Origin: Chloroflexota bacterium
GTDB taxonomy: Bacteria; Chloroflexota; UBA6077; CF-72
Direction of reading: 5' to 3'
DNA length: 51,528 nt
NCBI GenBank assembly: GCA_019239775.1
Contig: JAFAZN010000197.1
Span: forward strand, 1 to 51,528
Positions 20,551 to 47,318 of the stretch are shown in pieces. The notes below the pieces were generated by a model. The model saw nothing but the letters and a program-made list of their open reading frames with translations, did no database searches and was not told the DNA's origin. A program made the translations under genes and the position numbers. Positions within the stretch are counted from its first letter, which is position 1. Each line of letters starts with the position of its first letter.

Positions 20551-20616
20551 TTACGGAGTGCTATCTCCTGACGGAGTGATTGCAGCGTACGGAGTGATGC
20601 CGCCTCACGGATGTGG
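20551..20616. repeat. Four-unit 18-nt tandem repeat (acggagtg family)
   Basis: The core acggagtg begins at 20553, 20571 and 20589, and a variant acggatgtg at 20607, so the period is exactly 18 nt while the bases between cores vary. The array fills most of the 108-nt convergent gap between the ester-cyclase-like and HyuA-like genes. A 12-bp palindrome GGTCCGCGGACC directly after the ester cyclase stop (20524-20535) shares the gap. The core matches the larger array at 40498-40910. Confidence 0.75.
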
Positions 20617-20631
20617 TGGTCGCCGAACGGG

Positions 20632-22720: not shown

Positions 22721-22938
22721 GCTCCGCAGTTTGCGCTTCCGCGAGGGTACCGCTCCGCGAGGGTACCGCTCCGCGAGGGTGCCGCTCCGCGCGGGTGCCG
22801 CTCCGCGTGATGGCGCTCTGCATGATGGGCGCGGCAGCCCAAAGGGTTGGAACTCCGGGAGTGTGGCACTCCGTGACGTGGGCTTCTGGGAGGTGGCACA
22901 CGCTGACGTGGCCCTCGCGGAGATGGAGCTCTGCGTGG
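22721..22938. repeat. Degenerate 16-nt tandem repeats (gctccgcg / cactccgtg family)
   Basis: GCTCCGCGAGGG-type units recur with starts at 22752, 22768, 22784 and 22800 (exact 16-nt steps). More decayed units continue on either side (22721, 22735, 22815, then aactccgg, cactccgtgacg and cttctgggagg forms to 22938). This fills nearly all of the 246-nt gap between the FAH-family gene and HyuA. Read on the minus strand the core becomes cacggagtg, linking it to the 20551 and 40498 arrays. A promoter for HyuA would have to lie inside the array. Confidence 0.7.
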
Positions 22939-34006: not shown

Positions 34007-35194
34007 CTAGGGGCGAAACTCCAGGATGTGCAGACCGCCGACGGCGTCGGTCATGTACACCAACCCGCGTTTATCGACGAACACGTCGGCGGAGGCAAGC
34101 GGCCGGTCGTTCTGCGCAGGAGGCACGAACGCCGCGATCTCTTCCGGCCGAAATGGATTGGCAATGCTGAACAAGCGCAAGCCTGCATTCTGATAGGTCA
34201 CGAAGATCGTTTCCGAGCTTTGAAACGTGCCTTCGCGGTTCTCGTGCAGGTTGTGCGGACCGAACTTCCCGGGAAGCCGGCAATAGTCGCGGTCCGACGG
34301 CACAGGGAACGTTGCAATCGAGATTGGATTGGTTTTCTCGCGGACGTCGAAAACCCAGGTGTATTTGGTACCGTCGGCGCAATTTTCCAGGACCGCCTCG
34401 TCGGCGTCGATCAACAAATTGCGGTCAGGCAGTGGCAGCGCCGAATGAGTCCCACCGCCGAACGGCGGCGACCAGTTCCGATGCGCCAACAACTGAGGAT
34501 GTGCTGGGTCATGGACGTCCACAATGGTGAGTCCACCGTCACGCCACGAACCGTAGGCAATGCCATCCGCTACCACCGCGTGGTGAAGCGCGACACGTCC
34601 GCTCTTCCAACCAGGCGACTCTCCGCCGGCGCGCCACATGCCTGGTATCCACCATCGCCCAGCCTCAACAGGGTGCGTCGGATCGTTCATGTCGATGATC
34701 AGCAGGATGTGGTCGGTGTAGCCCTCCAGCAGCGCCGAGCCATAGGCGTAGCGACCACCGTCGTACCACAGCCGGTGGATGCCGAGCCCCTCCACCTCCA
34801 GGTACCCGATCTGTCGCGGTTCGGCGGGCTTGGAAATGTCATACACGCGCATACCCGCCATGAAGTCTTCGCCGCGTTTCCCGAAGCTGCTGGTGCTCCA
34901 GCCCTCCATCGACCGCGCGTAGTAGGCCTCCATGCTGCCGTATATCGAGAACAGATTTGCAGAGTCGACGACCAGCAGCAGGTTGTCGTGCACCTGCAGG
35001 TGGATGTTCAAGGTGGCTGGCGCGGTCGGAACAAAGCCTGCCGGCTTGGGCTCACGCGGATTCGAGACGTCGATGACGCTGAACCCACCGTAGCGGGCCT
35101 GCCCGATGTAGGCATGCTCGTGGTAGACCATGATCTGGATGCCATGCGGGCGTCCACCCTGGTCGGAGTAGCCCAGAGGCTCTAGTGTTGTCAC
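34007..35194 (-). CDS. LVIVD-repeat beta-propeller protein
   Basis: The 395-residue protein is made of LVIVD-type repeats: GGFSVIDVSNPREPKPAGF, GMRVYDISKPAEPRQIGYL, LLIIDMNDPTHPVEAGRWW, GLTIVDVHDPAHPQLLAH and AGLRLFSIANPFRPEEIAAF. These form a beta-propeller usually found in surface or secreted proteins, but no signal peptide is seen here. The function is unknown. The frame is open back to 35338 within the divergent enolase gene. I placed the start at GTG 35194 because it is the first start outside that gene; an ATG at 35251 would overlap it by 48 nt. Neither has a ribosome site. Confidence 0.82.
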   Translation of the reverse strand: MTTLEPLGYSDQGGRPHGIQIMVYHEHAYIGQARYGGFSVIDVSNPREPKPAGFVPTAPATLNIHLQVHDNLLLVVDSANLFSIYGSMEAYYARSMEGWSTSSFGKRGEDFMAGMRVYDISKPAEPRQIGYLEVEGLGIHRLWYDGGRYAYGSALLEGYTDHILLIIDMNDPTHPVEAGRWWIPGMWRAGGESPGWKSGRVALHHAVVADGIAYGSWRDGGLTIVDVHDPAHPQLLAHRNWSPPFGGGTHSALPLPDRNLLIDADEAVLENCADGTKYTWVFDVREKTNPISIATFPVPSDRDYCRLPGKFGPHNLHENREGTFQSSETIFVTYQNAGLRLFSIANPFRPEEIAAFVPPAQNDRPLASADVFVDKRGLVYMTDAVGGLHILEFRP

Positions 35195-35209
35195 ATCATA
35201 ATTATGATG
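35194..35209. promoter_or_regulatory. Perfect 16-bp palindrome spanning two divergent start codons
   Basis: CATCATAATTATGATG reads identically on both strands. It covers the LVIVD GTG (35194) and the enolase ATG (35204). It is the only AT-rich sequence between the two genes, so a shared regulator site or two back-to-back leaderless starts are possible. Neither gene has a Shine-Dalgarno sequence here. Confidence 0.6.
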
Positions 35210-36256
35210 AAGATCACGGGTTGCCTCACCGACGTCGTTCGCGTCGGGCATGACGAGTCGATCACCGGCATCCACATTGTTCTCAGGCTGCAGACCGATG
35301 CCGGCGTCGAGGGCATCAGCTACATCAGCCGACTTCACGACGCGGCGCCCGCCGCACTCAAGGTCCTTCAGATCTACGCCGAGCGCATCATCGGCATGGA
35401 CCCACTCGCGCCGGAGGCGATCGAGGATCGTCTGCTCCTCCGCGGACGACCCCTACCCTGGTTTGAAGCACGTGCAGCCAGCGCCATCGACGTTGCCCTG
35501 TGGGACATCCGCGGCAAAGCCGCTGGGCAGCCGGTGTACAAGCTCCTGGGCGGCTTCCGCGATCGCGTCCCGTGCTACGCGAGCTGGAGGGTCGAACCCT
35601 CGGCGGATCTCGACAAGGTTGCGCAGAGCGCGCAACGCCACGTGGCGAACGGCTTTACCGCGATGAAATGCCATCTCGGTCCGCTGAGCTTGCCACGTGT
35701 GGTCGAGCACATGCGGGTCCTTCGCGAAGCGGTCGGTGACAACGTCGACATCATGGTCGACGTCAATCAGCTGTGGAGCGTCAAGCAAGCGATCACCTTC
35801 ACCCGCGCCCTGGCGCCATATCACCCGTATTGGCTGGAAGATGCCACGTCGAATGTCGACTTTGGTGGGCTGCGGCAGGTCAGCGAGGCGCTGGACATCC
35901 CAACATGCGCGGGTGAGACCTACTTCACTATCGCATCGTTCCGACCGCTGATCGAAGGCCGCTGCGTCGACATTGTTATGGTGGACCAGGACCTGGGGTT
36001 GTCCGGCGCATTGAAGGTAGCGCACATGGCCGAGATTTACGGCCTCAAGGTGGTTCCGCACCTGGCGACAGAGATCCTGGCGCACCTCATCGCAGGGATA
36101 TCGAATGGGCTCACCGTCGAGTATTACCCGTGGGCGATGCCGCTCTTTCGCGAGGTGCCGCCGGTGGAAAATGGGATGCTCGTGTTGTCAGATCGGCCAG
36201 GTCTGGGCCTGGAACTGGACCCCGATGCACTCAGCAAGTACCGTTGCGACATATGA
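35204..36256 (+). CDS. Mandelate racemase/muconate-lactonizing enzyme family protein (enolase superfamily)
   Basis: The 350-residue enzyme carries the metal-site acids of the family: D186 (VDVNQ), E212 (WLEDA) and E238 (CAGET), plus the D261/H286 dyad (MVDQDLG, VVPHLAT). All but H286 lie a constant nine residues before their positions in mandelate racemase. In the KxK motif the first lysine is kept (K155) but the second is His157 (AMKCHLG), so a different general base is likely on that face. The family racemises or dehydrates carboxylate sugars and related acids. It starts at ATG 35204 or 35207, inside the palindrome, and is coupled by ATGA to the alpha/beta hydrolase. Confidence 0.9.
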   Translation: MMKITGCLTDVVRVGHDESITGIHIVLRLQTDAGVEGISYISRLHDAAPAALKVLQIYAERIIGMDPLAPEAIEDRLLLRGRPLPWFEARAASAIDVALWDIRGKAAGQPVYKLLGGFRDRVPCYASWRVEPSADLDKVAQSAQRHVANGFTAMKCHLGPLSLPRVVEHMRVLREAVGDNVDIMVDVNQLWSVKQAITFTRALAPYHPYWLEDATSNVDFGGLRQVSEALDIPTCAGETYFTIASFRPLIEGRCVDIVMVDQDLGLSGALKVAHMAEIYGLKVVPHLATEILAHLIAGISNGLTVEYYPWAMPLFREVPPVENGMLVLSDRPGLGLELDPDALSKYRCDI

Positions 36257-37098
36257 GTACTCCGTCCAGCCAGCGCACGACCGTCAACGGCTTTGCCATG
36301 CACTCCTGGGAGTGGCCAGGCAGCGGTCCAACCATTCTGTGCCTGCATCCGTCAGGCAATTACGGTCGTATCTGGGAATGGGTGGCGGAGCGACTGAGCC
36401 CCGACTACCGCGTCATCGCCATCGACCAGCGCGGCCACGGACGGAGCGAGCAGCCCGCGGCTGGCAACGCGACCGTCGACTACGCCGCTGATGTCGAAGC
36501 GTTCTGTCAGGCGGCCGGCCTGGACCGTGTCGTGGTGGCGGGGCATTCGCTGGGTGCGCGAAGTGGGATGGTGTTCGCGGCGGAGCATCCCGAGCGGGTG
36601 CTGGCGCTCGCGTTGGTCGGTGGACCGCACTTCGGTACGATTGTTCCCGGCGAAGACCTCGAGTACTGGCGCGGACAGGCCGACAAGATGCGCCAGCGAC
36701 AGCGTCGCTATGCCTCGGCGGCGGAAGCGCGCGAAGTCATTCAAACGCAGTACCCCTTCTACACCGCCGCCATGGTCGACCACACGCTCGAACACAATAC
36801 CAACCGGCTGGCCGATGGGAGTGTGGAATGGCAATTTGCGCCGGAGTGGGTGGCGGACGGTCTGTTGCATGCAACAGACGACTTGCGTTCGTATGCCGCG
36901 AAGATCAAATGTCCCGTGCTGATCCTGCGCGCAGAGAACAGCTGGGAGCTCACGCCGCAGCGGATGCCGCAAGTGGAGGCGGTTTTCCCCGCCGCGCGGA
37001 TTGTGACGATTGAGGGTGTACGCCAGAACCTGGAGCTGGAAGCGCCTGAGAAGGTGGCAGACAATATTCGCGCGTTCCTGGCCGAGGTGAGCGACTAG
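36253..37098 (+). CDS. Alpha/beta hydrolase with altered catalytic His position
   Basis: The 281-residue protein is a classical alpha/beta hydrolase. It has an oxyanion-hole segment LHPSGNYGRIW, the DQRGHGRSEQP loop and the nucleophile elbow GHSLGA (S99). The region where the catalytic His should sit (usually GxGHN) reads GVRQNL (residues 255-260), so the His is replaced by Gln258; the acid after VLILRAENSWEL is also unclear. It may be a catalytically altered member, or Gln may reflect a sequence change of one base. The ATG overlaps the enolase stop as ATGA. The longer frame from 36130 lies inside the enolase gene and is rejected. Confidence 0.87.
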   Translation: MSTPSSQRTTVNGFAMHSWEWPGSGPTILCLHPSGNYGRIWEWVAERLSPDYRVIAIDQRGHGRSEQPAAGNATVDYAADVEAFCQAAGLDRVVVAGHSLGARSGMVFAAEHPERVLALALVGGPHFGTIVPGEDLEYWRGQADKMRQRQRRYASAAEAREVIQTQYPFYTAAMVDHTLEHNTNRLADGSVEWQFAPEWVADGLLHATDDLRSYAAKIKCPVLILRAENSWELTPQRMPQVEAVFPAARIVTIEGVRQNLELEAPEKVADNIRAFLAEVSD

Positions 37099-37134
37099 CG
37101 TCGCCGACGCGCTGGCCTGATCCAGCGACAACTC

Positions 37135-38112
37135 GTGCGGATTGCGTTTTTCGGAGTCTCTCACTGGCATGCGCCGCTGTACTATCGGCCGGCGGCGGCG
37201 CTGGCGCAGCACCTTATCGAGGGGGTTGCAGATCCTGATCCCGGCGTGGCGGAGCGCGTCGGCAGCGAGCTCGGTGTGACAGCTTACACGCACCCCGAAC
37301 AGCTACTGGAACAACGTCCTGATTTCGCATTTGCCTTCGCCCCGCATGCCGCCATGCCCGCGCTCGGCAACCTGCTTGTCGATGCAGGCGTGCCATTCAT
37401 CATTGAAAAACCGGCAGGCCTCACCGCGGATGACGTCTCACACTTGTCGAATCGAGCGCAGGCCCGTGGCCTGCACGTTGGCACCGGCTTCAACTTCCGC
37501 GTGAGCGATTGGTTCAAGCGCCTTCGCGATCTAACCGCCAACGATCCAGCCACAGTCGCGCGATTCGCCTTCATCAGCGGTCCACCGGCGCGCTATCGCC
37601 AGCTTGGCTGTGCCTGGATGCTCGATCCCGCGCGCTCTGGCGGCGGCTGCACCATCAACCTGGCCCCACACTTGATCGACCTCTTCCGGATCTTCACCGC
37701 ATCCGAGCCAACCGTGCACTCTGCGCTCATGACCAATGCCAGCTGGGGCGAACCCGTGGAAGACTACTCCGCAATTGCGCTGCGCTCCGCCACTGCCGGT
37801 GGCATGGTGGAAACTGGCTACGGCTTCCCAGGCGAGCTGGGACGCTTTGATCAACTCTTCAGCTTGCGCACCGCGCACGCCTACGTCGTAATGCGGAGTG
37901 ACGACGTCATCGAGATCACTGATGCGAACACGTTTCAAGTGGAAGTCCTGCACACACCGACTGGCAACTTTCGCTGGTATCCAGCGTTCGTTGCCGAGTC
38001 GCTCGAGCGATTCGAACGAGGATTGCCGCCCGTGGCGAACCTCGACGACCTGCTCGCGGCGATGCGCGTGATCGACGCGGCATACACCGCTAGCGGGTGG
38101 CGCAAACCGTAG
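37135..38112 (+). CDS. Gfo/Idh/MocA-family oxidoreductase
   Basis: The 325-residue protein has a Rossmann NAD(P)-binding N-terminus (MRIAFFGVSHWH, without the usual GxGxxG) and an EKP motif (IIEKPAG) that carries the family lysine. The C-terminal domain has SGGGCTINLAPHLIDLFRIF. Substrates are usually sugars, inositols or their acids. It starts at GTG 37135, 36 nt after the hydrolase stop, so it may be read from the enolase operon. It is the first of four family members in 8.4 kb. Confidence 0.9.
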   Translation: MRIAFFGVSHWHAPLYYRPAAALAQHLIEGVADPDPGVAERVGSELGVTAYTHPEQLLEQRPDFAFAFAPHAAMPALGNLLVDAGVPFIIEKPAGLTADDVSHLSNRAQARGLHVGTGFNFRVSDWFKRLRDLTANDPATVARFAFISGPPARYRQLGCAWMLDPARSGGGCTINLAPHLIDLFRIFTASEPTVHSALMTNASWGEPVEDYSAIALRSATAGGMVETGYGFPGELGRFDQLFSLRTAHAYVVMRSDDVIEITDANTFQVEVLHTPTGNFRWYPAFVAESLERFERGLPPVANLDDLLAAMRVIDAAYTASGWRKP

Positions 38113-38178
38113 TTGCTCGGGGTTCCCTCCTCGAAAAGGCAGTTGACCTGGTGATGCCAGACGGTATCCTCGGTACGC

Positions 38179-40482
38179 GTGAGTCTCGTAGCGGGCGCCG
38201 TGGCGTCGGGCGCCGATCTTGTTGTCGAACACCACGCGTTCAACTGGCACGCCCATCTGCCGCAGCTGCGCGATCCGGGCCTGGCCAGCCTGCGCAGGGC
38301 GGCTCGAGCAGCCATCCTGATTCCAGCGTTGTTTGCGGCCTGTTCGTGGCTCGTGCCGCAGGCGCAGCTGATCACGTTTGCGACTTTCGGCGCCTTCGCA
38401 CTGATGGTCCTTGGCGACTTCGGTGGCTCATCGCGACACCGCGCAGCGGCCTACGCGGTAAGCACGCTCGCAGGTTGTGTGATCATCGTTGGGGCTTCGC
38501 TTGCTGCCGGAACCCCCTGGACGGCGGCGGTGGCCGTCGGCATCGGCGCGTTCATCATTCAGTTTGTTGCCATCTTCGGCGGGTACACCACTGCCGCGCA
38601 ATTGCCGCTGGTCCTGTGCCTGGTGCTGGCGGTAGCCATTCCGGCGCCTGTTGATCAGATCCCGCTCCGAATTGTCGGTTGGCTGATCGGAGGCGCCGTT
38701 GCGCTGCTCGGCGGCGTGTTTGCGTGGCCGCGACACGAACATACCGCGCTGCATCGCCTCGCGGCTGCGAGCTGCCAGCGCATGGGCGACCTGGTCACGG
38801 CTGTCTATGCCGTGTCGCCTGCCGAACGGGATGTGGAGGATCGTCGCCAACAAGCAACGAAAGCGCTCGACGAGCTGCGGCAGGCATACCGCGTGACACC
38901 GCACCGGCCGGCGAGTCCAACACGTCACGACCGCGCATTCGCGGAGCTCGTCGACGAGCTGGGGCGCGCTATGAAGCTTATGCCGGCGATTCCGCCGGCA
39001 GCCGGCGAATCCAGCGCCCGACTCCGCACCGCCAGCCAAAATCTCACAGAGGCCATCGTGGACGTGCTCCAATCCAGCGGGCGCGTGTTGGAGCGAGAGC
39101 GCCCTGCGCCGAACCTGGCGCAGTTGATACAGGTTCGGGAGGAGCACCGCCAGGCGCTCGACGAATGGGCCGCCGAACAGCTCCGATCCGGCACTCCAGC
39201 GCAGGCGGTTCTGGCGCGCCTGGACGTCGTGCGTCCGCTGAAGACCATCGCGTTCATTGCGCTCGCCATTGGAACCAATGCCACCCTGGCCGCCGGCCTC
39301 GAACTGGATCCGCGCGACGTGCGCGCGCTTCCAGTCGGATTCGAAACGGCAGCTGGAGTGGCAGCCGGAGCGCGGCGCGCCGCCGATACCTTCCACACCC
39401 ATCTGCGGCTGTCCTCCATCTGGTTCCGCAATTGCTTGCGCGCCGCCGTCGGCTTGAGCATCGCCGTCTTGCTGGTGGACCTCGTTGGACTGGACCACGC
39501 CTTCTGGGCGGTGCTGGGCACGTTGTCTGTGCTTCGCTCCAACGCGCTTGCGACCGGACGTACGGCTCTGGCGGCTGTCGTCGGAACCGCACTTGGGATT
39601 CTGCCGGCGGGCCTCCTGCTCATTCCATTAGGAACACAGCCCGCGGTGTTGTGGACGGTGTTTCCGTTCACCGTATTTGTCGCGGCCTACGCTCCGAGCG
39701 TAATTGGTTTCGTTGTCGGCCAGGCCGCATTCACCTTGCTGGTGGTGGTGTTGTTCAACTTGATCCAGCCCGTTGGATGGACGCTTAGTCTGGTCCGCCT
39801 GCAGGACGTGGTGATTGGCGCGGCAGTCAGTCTGGTGATCGGTGCCTTGTTCTGGCCGCGCGGTGCACGCGGGCAGCTTCGCACTGCGCTTGGCTCGCTG
39901 TACCGTCGCAATGCGGCGTATCTGCGGACCGCCTTCGACTTCCTCCTGGATCGATGTTCCGAGGAGGACTGTCTGGCCGCGCGCCACCTGGCCATTGATG
40001 AGTCGGCCCGCGCAGGCGAAGTCTTCGACCAGTTTCTCAACGACCGGTCGGCGAAAGTCTTGCCGCCAGGGACCTGGGGCACACTGCAAGCGGGCGGAAG
40101 TCACCTTCTGCTGGTTGGCGATTCGCTCGAGCGGCTTGCCGCGCACGGCTATCGGGTGCTGGCGTGCGCCGACGCGGCGCACGAGCTTTCACGTGCCGCC
40201 GCGGCTGTCGTGGACGAGCTGGAGTGCATGGGCCAGAGCCTGGAGCGCGGGGTTGCAACGCCACCTTCGCCCGGCGCAGCGGTGCCCGCCGCGTCTTTGG
40301 AGCAAGCCACAACCGAGTGTCTGGGCAACTGGGGCGGTAGCTCCGATGCCACCCTGCAGCGCTCGGCACTGGGCCTGGTCTGGGCGACGGACTGGATTCA
40401 ATCCCTGCGCATGGCGCTGGACCACTTGAGTGCACCATCCACAGCAGCAGTGCGCCTGGCAGGCCTTGCCTGGTGGCACTGA
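38179..40482 (+). CDS. FUSC-family membrane transporter (aromatic acid exporter type)
   Basis: The 767-residue protein has two membrane modules of about five helices each. The first is at residues 35-185 (AARAAILIPALFAACSWLVP to LIGGAVALLGGVFAW); the second is at about 415-560 (FRNCLRAAVGLSIAVLLVDLVG to VVIGAAVSLVIGALFWP). Cytoplasmic regions lie between and after. This duplicated plan is that of FUSC/YccS-type proteins, which include exporters of aromatic carboxylates and fusaric acid. It starts at GTG 38179, 66 nt after the Gfo/Idh/MocA gene, and ends before the large repeat array. No membrane-fusion partner gene is nearby, so the export mode is uncertain. Confidence 0.9.
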   Translation: MSLVAGAVASGADLVVEHHAFNWHAHLPQLRDPGLASLRRAARAAILIPALFAACSWLVPQAQLITFATFGAFALMVLGDFGGSSRHRAAAYAVSTLAGCVIIVGASLAAGTPWTAAVAVGIGAFIIQFVAIFGGYTTAAQLPLVLCLVLAVAIPAPVDQIPLRIVGWLIGGAVALLGGVFAWPRHEHTALHRLAAASCQRMGDLVTAVYAVSPAERDVEDRRQQATKALDELRQAYRVTPHRPASPTRHDRAFAELVDELGRAMKLMPAIPPAAGESSARLRTASQNLTEAIVDVLQSSGRVLERERPAPNLAQLIQVREEHRQALDEWAAEQLRSGTPAQAVLARLDVVRPLKTIAFIALAIGTNATLAAGLELDPRDVRALPVGFETAAGVAAGARRAADTFHTHLRLSSIWFRNCLRAAVGLSIAVLLVDLVGLDHAFWAVLGTLSVLRSNALATGRTALAAVVGTALGILPAGLLLIPLGTQPAVLWTVFPFTVFVAAYAPSVIGFVVGQAAFTLLVVVLFNLIQPVGWTLSLVRLQDVVIGAAVSLVIGALFWPRGARGQLRTALGSLYRRNAAYLRTAFDFLLDRCSEEDCLAARHLAIDESARAGEVFDQFLNDRSAKVLPPGTWGTLQAGGSHLLLVGDSLERLAAHGYRVLACADAAHELSRAAAAVVDELECMGQSLERGVATPPSPGAAVPAASLEQATTECLGNWGGSSDATLQRSALGLVWATDWIQSLRMALDHLSAPSTAAVRLAGLAWWH

Positions 40483-40497
40483 CAACGCCCAACGCCC

Positions 40498-40910
40498 TCA
40501 CGGAGGTGATGAACCTCACCGAGTGATATCCCCCGAGGTGATGAACCACCGGAGTATGTCCCCACGGAGGTGAAGTCCCCACGGAGGTGAAGTCCCCACG
40601 GAGGTGAAGTCCCCACGGAGGTGATGTCCCCACGGAGGTGAAGTCCCCACGGAGGTGTAGTCCCCCCGAGGTGATGATCCGACGGAGTGATGTCCCTCCG
40701 AGGTGATGAACCACCGGGGGTGAAGTCCTCACGGAGGTGATGATCCCCGGAGTGAAGTCCTCGCGGAGTGATGTCCCTCCGAGGTGACGAACCACCGGGG
40801 ATGAAGTCCTCACGGAGTGAAGTCCTCACGGAGTGATGTCCTCTCGGAGTGATGTCCCACGGAGGTGATCAACCTCAGGGAGTGATAACCCCGTGGAGTG
40901 ATGTCCCTGC
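40498..40910. repeat. 25-unit tandem array, 14-19-nt units (acggaggtgaagtcccc family)
   Basis: Unit cores (acggaggtg, acggagtg and variants) begin at 40500, 40518, 40532, 40548, 40564, 40581, 40598, 40615, 40632, 40649, 40665, 40682, 40697, 40713, 40731, 40746, 40763, 40778, 40793, 40812, 40828, 40844, 40859, 40877 and 40893. The block 40564-40615 has near-identical 17-nt units. A larger unit is duplicated 81 nt apart (40682 and 40763). Many cores form a small dyad cac-gga(g)-gtg. It fills most of the 485-nt convergent gap between the FUSC and SelA-like genes. It is not a CRISPR: there are no constant repeats with unique spacers. Confidence 0.9.
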
Positions 40911-40913
40911 GCG

Positions 40914-40940
40914 CCTGGAGGAAGAAAGCTGATCTCCAGG
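40914..40940. terminator. Weak hairpin after the repeat array
   Basis: CCTGGAG (40914-40920) and CTCCAGG (40934-40940) can pair as a 7-bp stem with a 13-nt loop, about 28 nt before the end of the SelA-like gene. There is no T-run on either side. It could help end transcription from both directions, but evidence is limited to the dyad. The rest of 40483-40967 apart from this and the array shows nothing recognisable. Confidence 0.3.
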
Positions 40941-40967
40941 AGTCCAATGCAGGCAGCGGCTCGGGCG

Positions 40968-42080
40968 TTAGGGCCTCAGCAACTGCTGCAGAGCGCGCAG
41001 GACGATGTGCTCCTCGTCGGGCTCCACCGTCTGCGGATTCAGGGCTATCGCGTCATCGCCAATCACGCCTACCGCAATTCGTGGGTTCGCATCCCACAGT
41101 GCCGCCACCAACTCCGCCCGAGACAACGCAGCACCAGGTCCGAGTCGCACAATCGCGCGTGCGTGCGGCTGTCCTGCCTCACTCGGATAGCCGCGTTCCG
41201 CCGTCACTCCAGGCAGACCTTGCAAACCATGAAGCCAACGCTGGACCATTGCCTCGTATCCGGCGAGGAGCGCCTGCTCATCCTGCTCCAGCGACCATTC
41301 AACGGCCGCCAGAATGCCGAATAGCTCTTCTTTGCCGACTTTCATCGGCCGCCCCAGGCTGTGATTCGGCGGACCGTTGGCGATACACGCTTCGACGAGC
41401 GAACGTCGACCCAGCACCAGACCCGTCGACTGCGGTCCGCGCAGGCCTTTGCCGCCCGAGAAGATGGCCGCGTCGGCACCCAGCTCGCGCGTGAAATGCC
41501 AGAGGTTCGCAATCGGCGGAATCTGCGCAGCCGCATCGACGAGCACCGGAACGGCGCGGGCGTGCGCAATTGCGATCACGTCCTCCAGCGGTAAGGCTCC
41601 AGCCGCGAAGTGCAGTCCGGCGAAGTACAGCACGCATGCCGTCGCCGGCGAGAAGGCATCCTCCAGGTCTTTCAATTCCGCGCCGATCTCCACGACGTGC
41701 GCACCGGTCTGGAACGCTGCCTGGTCGTAGCCGTTCCGCTGCGAAGCGTAGATGATGACCTCTGGTCGTGGACTCAGGTGCGGTAGGCGGTGGATCAGCT
41801 GGGGGTCGCAGCCCGCGATACAACCGGCGATCGTAATCGCGATACCCGCGGCAGCGCCGCTCGAAACGTAGCACGCATCATTGTGAGTGAGGCTTGCAAT
41901 CCGGTCTCCGACACGTTGTTGCAGCTCCACCAGGTCCACGAACGCCGAGGCGCCGGCGAGCATTGCATCGAGCACCACCGGTGGCATGCGCGATCCACCC
42001 AGGCGTGTCAATGTCGCCGCGGCGTTGACGACTGGGCGCACGCCAAGATCCAGGTACCCGTACCCGGGGGTTTCCGCCAT
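40968..42080 (-). CDS. SelA-like PLP-dependent enzyme (selenocysteine synthase / DgaE family)
   Basis: The 370-residue protein has a PLP fold of the SelA family: VRPVVNAAATLTRLGGSRMP at the start, a VDAAAQIPP segment (D182) for the cofactor ring, and the PLP lysine K211 in FSGGKGLRGPQSTG. It is shorter than true SelA (about 460 residues) and lacks the extra N-terminal domain. It therefore fits the SelA-like aminotransferase/ammonia-lyase group such as D-glucosaminate-6-phosphate ammonia-lyase. The ATG has no strong ribosome site. It faces the Gfo/Idh/MocA gene at 42132 divergently, 51 nt apart, and both could act on amino or acid sugars; this is inference. Confidence 0.88.
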   Translation of the reverse strand: MAETPGYGYLDLGVRPVVNAAATLTRLGGSRMPPVVLDAMLAGASAFVDLVELQQRVGDRIASLTHNDACYVSSGAAAGIAITIAGCIAGCDPQLIHRLPHLSPRPEVIIYASQRNGYDQAAFQTGAHVVEIGAELKDLEDAFSPATACVLYFAGLHFAAGALPLEDVIAIAHARAVPVLVDAAAQIPPIANLWHFTRELGADAAIFSGGKGLRGPQSTGLVLGRRSLVEACIANGPPNHSLGRPMKVGKEELFGILAAVEWSLEQDEQALLAGYEAMVQRWLHGLQGLPGVTAERGYPSEAGQPHARAIVRLGPGAALSRAELVAALWDANPRIAVGVIGDDAIALNPQTVEPDEEHIVLRALQQLLRP

Positions 42081-42131
42081 CAGGGCTTAGCCTACAACAG
42101 ACCGGCGGCCCGTTCGGGTAACGTGTAGCGC

Positions 42132-43079
42132 GTGCGTATTGGCATGCTTGGCACACGCCACGGCCACGCCGCGGGCAAGTGGCTGGCGCTTTGCGCAAAT
42201 CCCCAGGTTGAACCGGTGGGCATTTTTGATCCAGACCCACTTGGCGTGGAGCGGTTCTCGCATGCGCGCTGGTTGCACTCGGCGGACGACCTGCTGCAGG
42301 ACCCGTCAGTCACGGCAATTGCAGTCGAGGCGCGCAACCACCAGAGCCTGCCGCTGGCACAGGCAGCCGTCGACGCGGGAAAACACCTGTGGTTCGACAA
42401 ACCGGCCGGCGATGATTGGCCCAGCTTTCAGAAGCTGATGCAGGCCGCGGCCGAACGCAAGGTGCACGTGCAGATGGGGTACATGTTCCGCTACAGCCCG
42501 GGGTTCGTTCGCATTGCGGAGCTGGCCCGCTCAGGCGCACTTGGGGAGGTGTTCAGCATTCGTGCGCACATGTCGACGTACGTGGACCTCAACGAGCGGC
42601 GTCAGCAGAGCCGCCACCTGGGCGGCATTCTTTACGACCTCGGTGGCCACGTGCTGGACCAAATCGTGTGGCTGCTCGGCCGGCCTTCTGGCATCCACAC
42701 GACATTGCAGAACGTTGCCACTCCGGAGATTCCTGCGTACGCCGACAATACAGCTGCGGTCCTGGAGTTCGATCGCGCGATTGCAATTGTGGATATCGCG
42801 GCGATGGAGCCGACGCCGACGGCGCGCCGGTTCGAGGTCTATGGCACGGTTGGCAGTGCGATTCTGGAGCCCTTTGACCCTGTGCGCACGCTGCGCATTG
42901 CGGCAAACGGGTCCGCGCAGGTTGTGGACCTGGACCCAGTGGACCGCCAGATGTTGTACGAGTTGGAGCTTGCCGCGTTCCTGGAGGTCATTCAAGGGAC
43001 GCGCGCACCAGACAGATCGCCAGAACACGAATTACTCGTGCAGGAGACGTTACTGCGCACCACCGGGCGACTACCGTAG
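42132..43079 (+). CDS. Gfo/Idh/MocA-family oxidoreductase
   Basis: The 315-residue protein has a Rossmann start (MRIGMLGTRHGHAAG), a DKP motif (WFDKPAG) in place of EKP, and the C-terminal GGILYDLGGHVLDQIVWLLG with the conserved Asp and His. It would oxidise or reduce a sugar or cyclitol with NAD(P). It begins at GTG 42132 with no clear ribosome site, divergent from the SelA-like gene. The convergent gap after it carries the 43085-43205 repeats. Confidence 0.9.
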   Translation: MRIGMLGTRHGHAAGKWLALCANPQVEPVGIFDPDPLGVERFSHARWLHSADDLLQDPSVTAIAVEARNHQSLPLAQAAVDAGKHLWFDKPAGDDWPSFQKLMQAAAERKVHVQMGYMFRYSPGFVRIAELARSGALGEVFSIRAHMSTYVDLNERRQQSRHLGGILYDLGGHVLDQIVWLLGRPSGIHTTLQNVATPEIPAYADNTAAVLEFDRAIAIVDIAAMEPTPTARRFEVYGTVGSAILEPFDPVRTLRIAANGSAQVVDLDPVDRQMLYELELAAFLEVIQGTRAPDRSPEHELLVQETLLRTTGRLP

Positions 43080-43084
43080 GGACT

Positions 43085-43205
43085 TTCTTCCGCACAGGCC
43101 ACGCTAATTACGGGACGACCCCTCTGCGCAGAAGCACTTCCGTGAAGAACCACTCCGTGGATGGGGAAGAGGCACTCCGTTAGGAATTACTGCGTGGAGG
43201 GACAA
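43085..43205. repeat. Degenerate cactccgtg tandem repeats
   Basis: Units cttcttccgcac, cacttccgtgaag, cactccgtggatg, cactccgttagg and tactgcgtggagg follow each other at roughly 15-22-nt spacing through the convergent gap between two Gfo/Idh/MocA genes. On the minus strand the core reads cacggagtg, the same family as 20551 and 40498 but in opposite orientation. The array is clearly decayed. Confidence 0.65.
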
Positions 43206-43221
43206 ACAGGGTCGCCTCTTG

Positions 43222-44394
43222 TCAGGGTGAACCAGGTGTGTGCCAAGACATCGCTTCGCCGCGGACGATGCGTGCGCGGCGTTCGTAGGTGCCTGGCCAT
43301 TCCACCGGCAGGTCGCCGTCCTCGACCATCAATCGGAGCGGATTGACCTTGGTCTTGAGCGGCAGATAGACGCGCTGTTTCTTCCGAGCGGACTCATACA
43401 GCGCCATCATGATCTCCTGGACCGCGCGGCCGCGTTCACCACGGCTGATCGGCTGGGTGATGCGACCTTCCACCCAATCAACGGCTTCCTGGCACTGGTG
43501 GGCCCATGCGTCATACCAGGGCGCCTCAACGGAGACCCATCCGTTCGTATCGCGGCCAATGTAGCGCACCGTGCCGATTTCGGTGTTGTAGCGCGCGGAT
43601 GGACCTTCCGGCATGTACATCGGCGCATCAGATGGAATCTGGTCATCCGGTGGATGCCTGGTGTCGAACTCCATGATGCCGTCGCTGCCGATCACCCGAC
43701 AGCCCTGGCCAAGTCCGCTGACAAGGTTGCCTTGAATGAGAATTGTGGCGCCGTTCCCGAGACCGACCAGTCCCAGGCACGCATCTTCCGCTGGCAAACC
43801 GCGTTCAACTCCATCGGTGGTCCGTTCGACCGCGCCTATCACCCATTCGGCCGGCGGCTCGTCCAGGAGAAACAATGCCAGGCGGATGTTGTGTGAATTC
43901 GTGTTGAGCAAGTTGCCGCCGTCATCCATTTGAACCTGGAGCACTTTGCCGATGGCGCCTTTGCGGATCAGCTCCCGCGCTGCCAGCCACGCTGCATGGT
44001 GTGGCCGCTGATACGCGATCACCAGTTTGACGCCGTTGCGCTCGCACGCGGTGAGCATCGCGTCGGCCTCGCCGAGGTCCACCGCCATGGGTTTCTGGCA
44101 CAGGATGGCCTTCGGGCGACGTGCCGCCGCCGCGATCACCATTTCGGCGTGTTGCTGATGCCACGAGCAGACGTCGACAAAGTCGGGTTTTTCCGTGTCC
44201 AGCATCTGGCGAAAGTCGGCGTAGCGTTTGTCTTCTGGAATACCGAAGAATTCGCCGAACTCACGCCGCGCATCGGGGTGGGTGTCAGCCAGAGCGCCCA
44301 GCTCGACAGGGTTGCCTGGAACGCCCTGCCAGGCGCGGGCATGCACTCGAGCGATCGTCCCACAGGCGATAATCGCGGTGCGATAGCGCGCCAT
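43222..44394 (-). CDS. Gfo/Idh/MocA-family oxidoreductase
   Basis: The 390-residue protein starts with a Rossmann segment (RTAIIACGTIARVHARAWQG) and has a QKP motif (LCQKPMAVD) at the position of EKP. NSHNIRLALFLLDEPPAEWV is the probable active-site helix. Its C-terminal domain is longer than in the 37135 and 42132 proteins, as in glucose-6-P or dehydroshikimate-like subgroups. ATG 44394 is 3 nt after the stop of the upstream member (44398-45480), so the two are one operon. The substrate is unknown. Confidence 0.9.
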   Translation of the reverse strand: MARYRTAIIACGTIARVHARAWQGVPGNPVELGALADTHPDARREFGEFFGIPEDKRYADFRQMLDTEKPDFVDVCSWHQQHAEMVIAAAARRPKAILCQKPMAVDLGEADAMLTACERNGVKLVIAYQRPHHAAWLAARELIRKGAIGKVLQVQMDDGGNLLNTNSHNIRLALFLLDEPPAEWVIGAVERTTDGVERGLPAEDACLGLVGLGNGATILIQGNLVSGLGQGCRVIGSDGIMEFDTRHPPDDQIPSDAPMYMPEGPSARYNTEIGTVRYIGRDTNGWVSVEAPWYDAWAHQCQEAVDWVEGRITQPISRGERGRAVQEIMMALYESARKKQRVYLPLKTKVNPLRLMVEDGDLPVEWPGTYERRARIVRGEAMSWHTPGSP

Positions 44395-44397
44395 CAG

Positions 44398-45480
44398 TCA
44401 GTGAGTTTCCAGTGGCAGGTTAATGGTCTGACCTGTGGCGTTGGAGCGGTAGGCGGCCTGCACGATTTCCACCGCGCGCATGCCGTCCTCAGCAGTTTGA
44501 CGCGTCGGCGCCTCGTTGAGGATGCCGCGGCTGTAATCCTCCCAGAGATGCGTGAACCCGAATGTCGAATCGGTTTCAACCAGCGGGATTTCGTGCAATT
44601 CGGTATCGCTATACATACGTGGCGCAATAATTTGGAGGCCCTTTCGACTTAATTCGAGGTAACCGTCGCGCGCGTGGAACGCGATCGAGTGATCCAGAGG
44701 TCCGTGCGCGATGCCAAACGTGCAGGTCATCTCGCCAGCGACGCCGTTGGCAAACTTCAGCAGCACAACGGCATGGTCTTCAGCGGTCATGTCGACAACT
44801 TTGCGATCGCCGAAGAGGCAGCTGACTCGTGTCACATCTCCCAGCAGCCAGCGAAGCACGTACATGGGGTGCACCGCCTGTGACATCAGGACGCCACCAC
44901 CCCCGCGGGGAGTAGCTAACCACGTCTGAACCGTCGGCGGAGCCTCGAAACCGGTGGTCTGAGCCAGGAAGACCTCGCCAATCGCGTCCTGGCGCAGCAG
45001 CTCGCTCATTTTCTCGACGCCCAGGCTGTAGACGCGGTTGTGTACGGGAAGGAGTTTTTTGCCTGCCCGCGCGGCGGCTGCCAGCATCCGATCGCATTCG
45101 GGCAATGTCGGCGCCAGCGGCTTTTCACAGACGACGTGCTTGCCAGCGTCGAGCGCCTCACTCACGTATTGCTCGTGCAGGTCGTGCGGCAGCAGGATGC
45201 CGACGCACTGCACCTCCGGATCCTTCAGCAGTTCCTGCCAGCTTGCGAACACGCGTTTCACGCTGGCTGCTTCGGCCCGTTCGCGCGCGAGCTCGGTATT
45301 CAGATCGTAGACGCCAACGACCTGCGCTTCTTTCACGGCGGAGAGCGCCTGCAAATGCACCCGGCCGATGCGACCCATGCCTACCAACGCGACGCGTAGT
45401 GGCGGCGAGTCGGCCCGGGGCAAGCGAGTGCAGTGTACCGGGATTGGCCCGGGCACCGTCGCTTGCCGTCGCGTGAGCAT
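44398..45480 (-). CDS. Gfo/Idh/MocA-family oxidoreductase
   Basis: About 360 residues: VALVGMGRIGRVHLQAL is the nucleotide-binding motif, EKP is present (VVCEKPLAPT), and GGGGVLMSQAVHPMYVLRWLLGD carries the active-site His. A GTG at 45501 is an alternative start; ATG 45480 leaves a 28-residue leader before the Rossmann fold, and a later TTG is possible, so the start is uncertain. The divergent binding-protein gene begins within 12 nt of it, so at least one of the two starts is probably placed too far out. It leads the two-gene operon with the 43222 member. Confidence 0.88.
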   Translation of the reverse strand: MLTRRQATVPGPIPVHCTRLPRADSPPLRVALVGMGRIGRVHLQALSAVKEAQVVGVYDLNTELARERAEAASVKRVFASWQELLKDPEVQCVGILLPHDLHEQYVSEALDAGKHVVCEKPLAPTLPECDRMLAAAARAGKKLLPVHNRVYSLGVEKMSELLRQDAIGEVFLAQTTGFEAPPTVQTWLATPRGGGGVLMSQAVHPMYVLRWLLGDVTRVSCLFGDRKVVDMTAEDHAVVLLKFANGVAGEMTCTFGIAHGPLDHSIAFHARDGYLELSRKGLQIIAPRMYSDTELHEIPLVETDSTFGFTHLWEDYSRGILNEAPTRQTAEDGMRAVEIVQAAYRSNATGQTINLPLETH

Positions 45481-45491
45481 TGCTGATATCA

Positions 45492-47318
45492 ATGGCTCCA
45501 CTTGGGACCAAAGGGGGTTTAAAGAAGCAGGTGTCTGCGATCAGACCTCGTTTTAAGCACTCGCTGTTGAGGGTTGGGGTCCTGGCGTTGGTCCTGGCCC
45601 AGACCTTAGGCACGACAGTGCAAGCCGCGCCCGCTGATCAACAGCAAGTGGCTCGCAAGGACATTCTCGTCATTCCAACGAACGTCCAAGTCCCGGCTCC
45701 GGATATCTGGAACCCGTACATCCCCGGCACGTTCATCTTGCAGGGGATGAACCAGAACCTCATGGAGCCCCTGTTCATGTTGAACTATGAGACGGGCAAC
45801 ATCGACGGTTGGTTGGCTTCGGGCTACACGGCCAGTCCCGACCAGACCACGTGGACGGTGACCCTCAAGCCAGGGACGGAGTGGAGTGACGGTCAGCCGT
45901 TGACCTCCGACGACGTCGTGTTCACCATCAACATGCTGATTACGCACGCACCGCTGCTGAACTTCTCGATCCCGATCAAGAACGAGGTCCAGTCAGTCGT
46001 CGCTATCGACGACCGTACGGTCCAATTCACGCTGAATAAGGCCGACCCGTTCTTCCTCGTATCGAACCTGGCCGGCACCACCTCGCAAGCGATCGTTCCC
46101 GTGCCCCGGCATGTCTGGGAGAACGTCGACCCGGTGACGTTCAAGAACTCGTGGAACAACGGAAAGGGTGCGATCTTCAGCGGCCCGTACGTCGTCAAGA
46201 GCTTCTCGTCGACGGAATGGGACTACAAGCGCAATGACAACTGGTGGGGCGCCAAGTCGGGCGCGTTCCCGCTGCCTGCGCCGCTGGAGATCCACCGCCC
46301 GTGGATCGGCGACAGTGCGACCGCCGAACAGGCGCTGGTGAACAATGACGCCGACAGCGGCAGCTCGATCAGTGGCCTGACCCCAAGCACGCAGGCCGCG
46401 ATGATCGCGCAGAATCCGAAAATCCAGCCTTACAGCGGTGACCTGGGCTGGGTGGATCCGTGTCCGCGCATGCTCACGCTGAACACGACGATCGCGCCAT
46501 GGGACAACAAGGTCATGCGCCATGCGCTGTCCAACGGTCTCAACCGACGGCAGATTGTGGATGTCGTCTACGAAGGCGCCGGCGGCGACAGCGCGGTCTC
46601 GAATTTCATCTTCCCCACGTACAAGGCCTTGCAGCCGTACCGCGATGCTGCCAAGGACATCCTCGACCCCACAGTCGCCTACAACCCGGACCTCGCGCAC
46701 CAGTTGATCGAGAGCCAGGGTTACACGATGGGTAGTGACGGCCATTACGTCGGCCCGGATGGCAACACGCTATCTCTCGACGTGGTCGGCCCTCCGTTCA
46801 TGGAGCCGTGGGGCCGTATGGTCGTGCAGCAGCTACAGGCCATCGGCGTTGACGCCAATCTGCGGCTCATCGAGTGGGGCATCTTCCGTGACCAGACAGG
46901 GCGGGGCCAATTCACGGGCGCTGTTGACTGGGATGGCTGCGGTAGCGTGGTCGAGCCGTGGTTCGGTATGAACCGCTACAACAAGACATACGTCAATCCC
47001 ATCGGCGTGGCGGGCACCGAAAACGTCGACAACACCAACAACGCGGGGCGATGGTCGAACGACCAGTACTCAGCGCTGATGGACCAGATGGGGAGCCTGC
47101 CGCTCGGCGACCCGCGAGTGATGGACCTGTACATGCAGGCGGTCCAGATCTGGGCTGACGAGCTGCCCGACATCCCGTTGGTGCAGACGCCCACGCTGCT
47201 GACGTTCAACTCGACCTACTGGACCGGCTGGCCAGTAGCGAGCAACAACTATGTGCAGCCGCCTGACTGGTGGGAGCACTTCCTGAAGGTGCTGATCACG
47301 ATTAAACCCGCGCAATGA
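45492..47318 (+). CDS. ABC transporter substrate-binding protein, family 5, with Sec signal peptide (no lipobox)
   Basis: About 608 residues: a positively charged N-region, a hydrophobic core LLRVGVLALVLAQTLGTTV and AQA-like cleavage near VQAAPA, then an SBP_bac_5 domain (TWTVTLKPGTEWSDGQPLTSDDVVF). No lipobox Cys is present, unlike the three other family-5/1 binding proteins in the window. If the host has one membrane, this protein could be released or held by the permeases. ATG 45492 and GTG 45531 are both possible; the latter gives a tighter signal peptide. It starts a full importer operon; a strong hairpin follows it. Confidence 0.9.
   Translation: MAPLGTKGGLKKQVSAIRPRFKHSLLRVGVLALVLAQTLGTTVQAAPADQQQVARKDILVIPTNVQVPAPDIWNPYIPGTFILQGMNQNLMEPLFMLNYETGNIDGWLASGYTASPDQTTWTVTLKPGTEWSDGQPLTSDDVVFTINMLITHAPLLNFSIPIKNEVQSVVAIDDRTVQFTLNKADPFFLVSNLAGTTSQAIVPVPRHVWENVDPVTFKNSWNNGKGAIFSGPYVVKSFSSTEWDYKRNDNWWGAKSGAFPLPAPLEIHRPWIGDSATAEQALVNNDADSGSSISGLTPSTQAAMIAQNPKIQPYSGDLGWVDPCPRMLTLNTTIAPWDNKVMRHALSNGLNRRQIVDVVYEGAGGDSAVSNFIFPTYKALQPYRDAAKDILDPTVAYNPDLAHQLIESQGYTMGSDGHYVGPDGNTLSLDVVGPPFMEPWGRMVVQQLQAIGVDANLRLIEWGIFRDQTGRGQFTGAVDWDGCGSVVEPWFGMNRYNKTYVNPIGVAGTENVDNTNNAGRWSNDQYSALMDQMGSLPLGDPRVMDLYMQAVQIWADELPDIPLVQTPTLLTFNSTYWTGWPVASNNYVQPPDWWEHFLKVLITIKPAQ

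Follow-up and report, generated by a model that had tools for sequence, protein, structure and literature searches.

We identified, in the intergenic DNA of a Chloroflexota genome, a family of imperfect tandem-repeat arrays that our searches of other genomes did not recover. A 9-bp core of the repeat unit is better kept than the remaining tail, and arrays at different loci share long stretches, including an ordered block of approximately 85 bp. Our best explanation, which we hold with about as much doubt as belief, is a lineage-private satellite spread by the copying of multi-unit segments between gaps, with the core as a predicted protein recognition site. By this account, slippage or unequal recombination would make and erase units locally, while segment copying, or conversion between arrays, would seed and homogenise the gaps. 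Promoterless gaps would tolerate arrays best, so that convergent gaps fill. As the least certain step, a DNA-binding protein, belonging either to the copying machinery or to the host chromosome, may read the core and keep it constant while tail and spacing drift. The family offers a concrete setting in which to ask by what route a 17-bp unit can spread chromosome-wide without visible transposon ends, and it raises the question of whether a protein holds the core constant.

The array between the FUSC-family and SelA-like genes

The array was detected in a 51,528-nucleotide stretch of DNA (hereafter the window). The features concerned are as follows.

38179..40482, + strand: FUSC-family gene (Pfam PF13515, E 7.1e-21)
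40483..40967, no strand: convergent intergenic gap of 485 nt holding the array (ORFs, sequence)
40499..40910, + strand: tandem array (TRF, weight matrix, model R1)
40564..40648, + strand: most regular stretch of the array (sequence: five consecutive 17-mers)
40968..42080, − strand: SelA-like PLP-dependent enzyme, aminotransferase class V (Pfam PF00266, E 5.2e-08)
20553..20624, + strand: short array of 4 units, also of this family and also between convergent genes (weight matrix; model R1)

The end of the FUSC-family gene lies 17 nt from the start of the array, and the SelA-like gene, homologues of whose protein carry the name L-seryl-tRNA(Ser) seleniumtransferase in one source, ends on the other side. 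The array consists of approximately 25 degenerate units of 14–19 nt arranged head to tail, each with the core CACGGAG(G)TG and a looser tail. Tandem-repeat detection, which the first-pass annotation had proposed, recovered it at periods of 17 and 81 in three TRF calls: 40499–40869 (period 17, 22.8 copies), 40558–40868 (period 17, 18.9 copies) and 40499–40885 (higher-order period of 81 bp, 4.7 copies). The weight matrix placed 22 unit starts, the first at 40500, and its final unit stops at 40909; two wide intervals between starts (32 and 49 nt) correspond to approximately three further degenerate units, and the annotation's count of about 25 units in a convergent FUSC/SelA-like gap of 485 nt is therefore right. 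Its near-perfect stretch of 17-nt units also stands, at 40564–40648, where four of the five 17-mers are identical and the fifth carries a single change.

Chance is ruled out as the origin of the array. With one mismatch or fewer, ACGGAGTGAT occurred 15 times in the window, compared with 2.89 ± 1.62 times in 100 shuffles, none of which reached 15. Across the 975,522 bases of sampled sequence, the weight matrix called 107 array pieces of three or more units, against 2 in the reversed and complemented controls.

Related arrays had been proposed elsewhere in the window. The array at 20553–20624 was confirmed as one (model R1, E 0.0018 and 0.034), while membership was not established for the repeat at 22738–22807. 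In the latter, which lies upstream of a hydantoinase gene, a 16-nt unit recurs regularly (4.4 copies, 96% match). The head of this unit shares only 7 of the 9 letters of the family core, the two outer pairs being altered such that pairing is kept, and the weight matrix made no call there; the repeat is a candidate member at most.

Dispersed arrays, their unit and their position among genes

The draft genome sampled comprises 7.2 Mb in 507 contigs. Searched with up to three mismatches, the unit occurred 242 times in it, compared with 18 times for the reversed pattern, and BLAST of the array against its own genome, in which 40 of 144 candidates were scored, gave at least 64 matches with E no higher than 10. 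We then examined 80 regions together with the window, 975,522 bases in total, 60 of the 80 regions having been chosen for their hits. The weight matrix identified 76 arrays of four or more units in this sequence, one array being counted twice, once on each strand. These total 20,203 bases, with a median of 240 nt and a maximum of 703 nt, and they bear out the suggestion that the window's repeats are part of a genome-wide family. The doubly counted array (L044:680–1064) is read on both strands because its units contain both GTGATGTCAC and GTGACATCAC. The remaining 20 regions (242,377 bases), whose choice did not rest on hits, yielded 2 such arrays with the same matrix, one of them on a contig already known to bear arrays. 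A sequence-only model built from 35 array pieces gave at least 127 genomic matches from 89 scored candidates out of 2014, some of the matches on contigs outside the sampled sequence, so that 76 is not the full array count. Free of any motif, TRF detected 68 arrays of period 14–20 and four or more copies in the same, mostly hit-chosen, regions: 67 in gaps and 1 in a gene. The same genome also contains, at L095:6153–6443, an 81-bp unit in 3.6 copies (90% match), in the displayed part of which the family core is absent.

The family unit is composed of a 9-bp core, CACGGAGTG or close variants, followed by a looser tail. A head agreeing with CACGGAGTG in at least 7 of its 9 letters was present in 52 of the 67 TRF arrays in gaps, three of these having both outer letters changed, including the window repeat at 22738–22807. 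Among the other 15, variants such as CACGGACGTG, CACGGAAGTG or ACGGGAGTG were carried by 14, and one (L081:35–96) had neither core nor variant. Within TRF arrays, identity was 0.919 for the core and 0.832 for the tail, the latter value being lowered by alignment trouble in the tail's variable length, and the core was the higher in 44 of 52 arrays (Wilcoxon p 2.5e-8). For arrays called by a matrix that requires core and tail letters equally, identity was 0.905 for the core (seven positions) and 0.778 for the tail (five positions), and the core was the higher in 58 of 64, a difference that holds for A/T and G/C positions separately. This comparison leaves out two head positions: the A before the core C, with an identity of 0.871, and the G/GG position, whose identity of 0.785 puts it level with the tail in variability. 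Unit spacing by the weight matrix was mostly 15–19 nt within a mixture of 14–20 nt.

A conserved core with a loose tail and spacing fits a recognised core with a loose spacer, and such an uneven unit could also be expected from neutral repeats with biased mutation. A purely neutral minisatellite, produced by slippage and recombination only, read by nothing and persisting where it does least harm, is in our judgement unlikely but deserves serious weight: the strong degeneracy of the units and their restriction to one genome are what it would predict, whereas a core better kept than the tail in most arrays argues against it.

Gene calls around the arrays were made with a home-made codon-usage caller. 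None of the 76 arrays was centred in a gene call; 19 lay in convergent, 17 in tandem and 8 in divergent gaps, and the remaining 32 had no neighbour on one side. When only gaps of at least 30 nt are considered, arrays were present in 18 of 71 convergent gaps, compared with 17 of 236 in tandem and 8 of 122 in divergent position (25 of 358 when the latter two classes are pooled; Fisher p 2.5e-5 for convergent against the rest). Of the 120 gene ends that flank arrays, 72 were 3′ ends. Counting by gene position, as proposed in the first-pass annotation, thus shows that convergent gaps are favoured. A similar lean was nevertheless seen for unrelated dispersed repeats of this genome, which occurred in 11 of 48 convergent gaps as against 20 of 199 in tandem and 10 of 108 in divergent position, so that the lean of the arrays may mean only promoter avoidance. 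This shared lean is also in keeping with a neutral minisatellite, as is the indifference to strand in tandem gaps, where 9 arrays had the strand of the genes and 8 the opposite one.

The preference for convergent gaps and 3′ ends, together with a conserved core at free spacing, could alternatively point to arrays of binding sites that serve the host, in which a chromosome-organising, insulating or topoisomerase-loading protein acts at gene ends and selection keeps the sites. We regard this as improbable, since 53 of the 71 convergent gaps in the same regions had no array, unrelated repeats lean in a similar way and the family was not found in congeners.

Two of the other dispersed intergenic repeats can be described. 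One is a partly palindromic family of approximately 130 bp (...CCTAGG...GGCCGA...), whose 14 grouped gaps all lack a called array (L071:12859–13108, L085:1415–1950, L100:17468–17934 and others). The other (GGGGGG...GGAAGGAGCGACCGCGCGCAGCGCGACGAGCGAC...) forms a group of 6 gaps, with sites at L054:5421–5630, L060:5260–5545, L065:2374–2760, L081:2844–3243 and elsewhere.

An origin of the arrays in faulty assembly or binning, or in decayed coding sequence, is very improbable. In its favour, the genome is a draft in many contigs with 5.09% contamination, 32 of the 76 arrays have no gene call on one side within the sampled stretch, 22 lie no more than 60 nt from the end of such a stretch, and some contig-edge arrays, including those with the three longest shared stretches, may be the two ends of one locus. 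In contrast, the regions chosen for arrays had a G+C of 0.641 and the remaining ones 0.639, 44 of the 76 arrays, that of the window included, sit between two gene calls, and the mixed unit spacing of 14–20 nt counts against coding sequence; the first-pass annotation, too, had set a coding repeat aside. Many arrays are situated at the ends of contigs, so families of this sort may fragment short-read assemblies and go under-reported.

Shared segments and the search in other genomes

Units differed by 4.09 edits within arrays and 5.50 between them, indicating that arrays turn over locally. With flanks of 150 nt included, 52 pairs of arrays shared stretches of 88% identity or more. In addition, special units in a fixed order form the block of approximately 85 bp, which recurs inside arrays. 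In the sampled sequence, 21 copies of this block scored 25–30 of a possible 30 and none scored 22–24; background scores ended at 21, as they did in the reversed control. Of these 21, 19 had a called array no more than 150 nt away, and every one of the 19 lay on the strand of that array; the other 2 had no called array within this distance. With 98 of 2288 candidates scored, a block model made from the 21 copies detected at least 28 in the whole genome at E values of 1.6e-14 or below, the next match being the window's own array (E 2.2e-6). The shared stretches and the ordered block suggest that segments longer than one unit are copied or converted between loci. A neutral origin is the less probable for this order being kept in 28 strong copies and for the dozens of unlinked gaps reached, which call for a copying route; conservation of the block could, at the same time, reflect recent copying rather than constraint. 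A more elaborate and doubtful possibility is a bacterial satellite system in which a putative dedicated protein would bind CACGGAGTG arrays at dozens of gene ends, most strongly at the 85-bp block, and so fold or insulate the chromosome.

The satellite is likely to be private to this genome, as far as our search extended. None of 15 further genomes of the order and none of 399 further genomes of the phylum contained a two-unit pattern, and models R1 and R2 gave nothing convincing in 60 and 40 relatives, respectively, both congeners included. BLAST with another array of the family (E up to 0.1) returned single short matches in 11 of 60 other genomes, the best at E 0.001 over 37 bp, and model R1 gave two weak matches in 60 relatives (E 0.006 and 0.007) and one among 15 sampled loci of relatives (E 0.037); we took these as chance matches. 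For BLAST and both models alike, the number of candidates scored per genome was limited. In two genomes of the order, single units with up to three mismatches were more numerous than the reversed pattern used as control (103 vs 36 and 68 vs 20); the two-unit pattern and model R1 found nothing in either. A milder excess was seen in many other genomes, which makes the reversed control a poor baseline. Among named genome contigs, a set that may omit records near the source genome, three exact matches were detected, two in apparent coding sequence and one in another repeat, and we read them as unrelated. Neither the unit pair nor the block had any match among viral contigs.

Inspection by eye downstream of the FUSC relatives of the congeners (n=2; 40% identical, synteny not established) revealed no array. 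Named relatives of the SelA-like protein point to Chloroflexota as the likely phylum; the nearest relative among the best 120 of 4886 was 82% identical, and thus no close sister came to light. Absence from sister genomes had been named in advance as a result that would tell against the array; the failure to find the family in two congeners argues against its conservation, not against its reality. The sampled sequence of these congeners (94,201 and 229,932 bases) contained other tandem repeats instead, and in one of them (G001) short repeats of AACGCGA and GTTGCGC heptamers were observed at L166:10036–10087 and L167:7469–7541. No published description of the unit was recognised in the literature, covered mostly at the level of titles and the openings of abstracts.

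Folding, transposon ends and resemblance to known repeats

Compared with dinucleotide shuffles, 60 arrays had mean fold z values of 0.17 and 0.24 on the two strands, whereas ordinary array-free gaps (60 of 181) had a mean of −1.06. The window array folds well on its + (unit) strand, with z −3.0, and three more of the 60 reached −3.6, −2.1 and −2.0. A hairpin unit with GGAG/CTCC arms was rejected, pairing within arrays being no higher than for permuted arms (z −1.89). The GNA-loop rule for DNA mini-hairpins is the background to a second candidate, CAC-GGA-GTG, whose pairs showed 9 compensated changes against 5.3 ± 1.9, 6 against 3.1 ± 1.5, and 0; these are suggestive at two pairs but too weak for a claim, and the four DNA oligomers of this test folded no better than shuffles. 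A 6-bp helix in the block was likewise rejected: it was paired in 92.0% of cells, above all slid versions (20.8–64.8%), but shuffles reached 91.7% and no double-sided changes were detected. A ribosome-binding-site decoy was considered for GGAGGTGAT, which resembles the complement of the 16S 3′ end, and was set aside because T is commoner than G there in 15–18-nt units.

An element acting as RNA, that is, a hairpin-based bidirectional terminator or stabiliser of convergent transcripts, would suit the gene-end position, the few good folds on the unit strand and the well-paired block helix. It is nonetheless highly improbable, considering the fold values close to those of shuffles, the absence of convincing covariation, the lack of any terminator-like site reported inside the 485-nt gap in a scan of 35000–46000, and the absence of an Rfam match at the gathering threshold in the whole window; this last result also accords with the initial description of the family as unfamiliar. 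Since the arrays fold like shuffles and show no convincing covariation, both a REP and a structured RNA are unlikely.

Returning to a satellite spread by segment copying, we searched the flanks for traces of transposition. The longest inverted flank match averaged 5.39 against 5.29 ± 0.17 when permuted (57 arrays), and the direct match, at 5.46 against 5.21 ± 0.13, was slightly raised for arrays whose borders are fuzzy. Array gaps occurred in 2 of the 8 largest groups of similar gaps; in the larger of these, it is the block that makes them alike. For the family as a whole we found neither a binding protein nor a copying enzyme, and its arrays showed no common flank, inverted end or target duplication. 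The one alike pair of flanks (L035:400–470 and L061:7566–7635) belongs to two arrays and has approximately 70 nt in common resembling the start of a signal-peptide gene; perhaps a gene was duplicated along with its array.

Tandem repeats in the intergenic DNA of one bacterial lineage are also represented by the cyanobacterial STRR; the units of LTRR and STRR differ in length from those of the array family, and MIRU units are much longer. A CRISPR, which the first-pass annotation had discounted together with REP, has near-identical repeats with unique spacers of uniform length; in the array, degenerate units abut without unique spacers. REP and BIME sequences, for their part, go with a RAYT transposase. 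According to the parts of the published accounts available to us, the LTRR repeats of Nostoc sp. PCC 7120 are likewise intergenic tandem repeats of one lineage, with another unit and in another phylum, the likeness being one of description (PMC2408588), and the mycobacterial MIRU minisatellites are likewise dispersed, intergenic and of one lineage (PMC3635867). REP and BIME sequences resemble the family in being short, extragenic, present in many copies and discussed as protein-binding sites, as far as the consulted portions of the sources describe them; REPs are palindromic and BIMEs alternate in orientation, whereas the array units run head to tail with no supported stem-loop (PMC3733652, PMC2817692).

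The closest known case, judged from the part of its description at hand, is probably BrickBuilt of Porphyromonas gingivalis, a minisatellite-bearing MITE with 19 intergenic elements, imperfect 23-nt units with a conserved and a variable half, and a leader and tail with inverted ends (PMC4596501). Both it and the array family have imperfect tandem units without spacers, intergenic and dispersed in one species (for the arrays, 0 of 76 gene-centred and none found elsewhere), conserved and variable unit halves, and arrays of up to approximately 23 copies. The family differs in its unit of 15–19 nt and its approximately 76 arrays, and no leader or tail with inverted ends was found for it; it is therefore not filed as a member of BrickBuilt, a further trait of which is promoter activity in both directions. 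Relative to BrickBuilt, as far as that partial description reaches, the internal ordered block is a feature of the array family.
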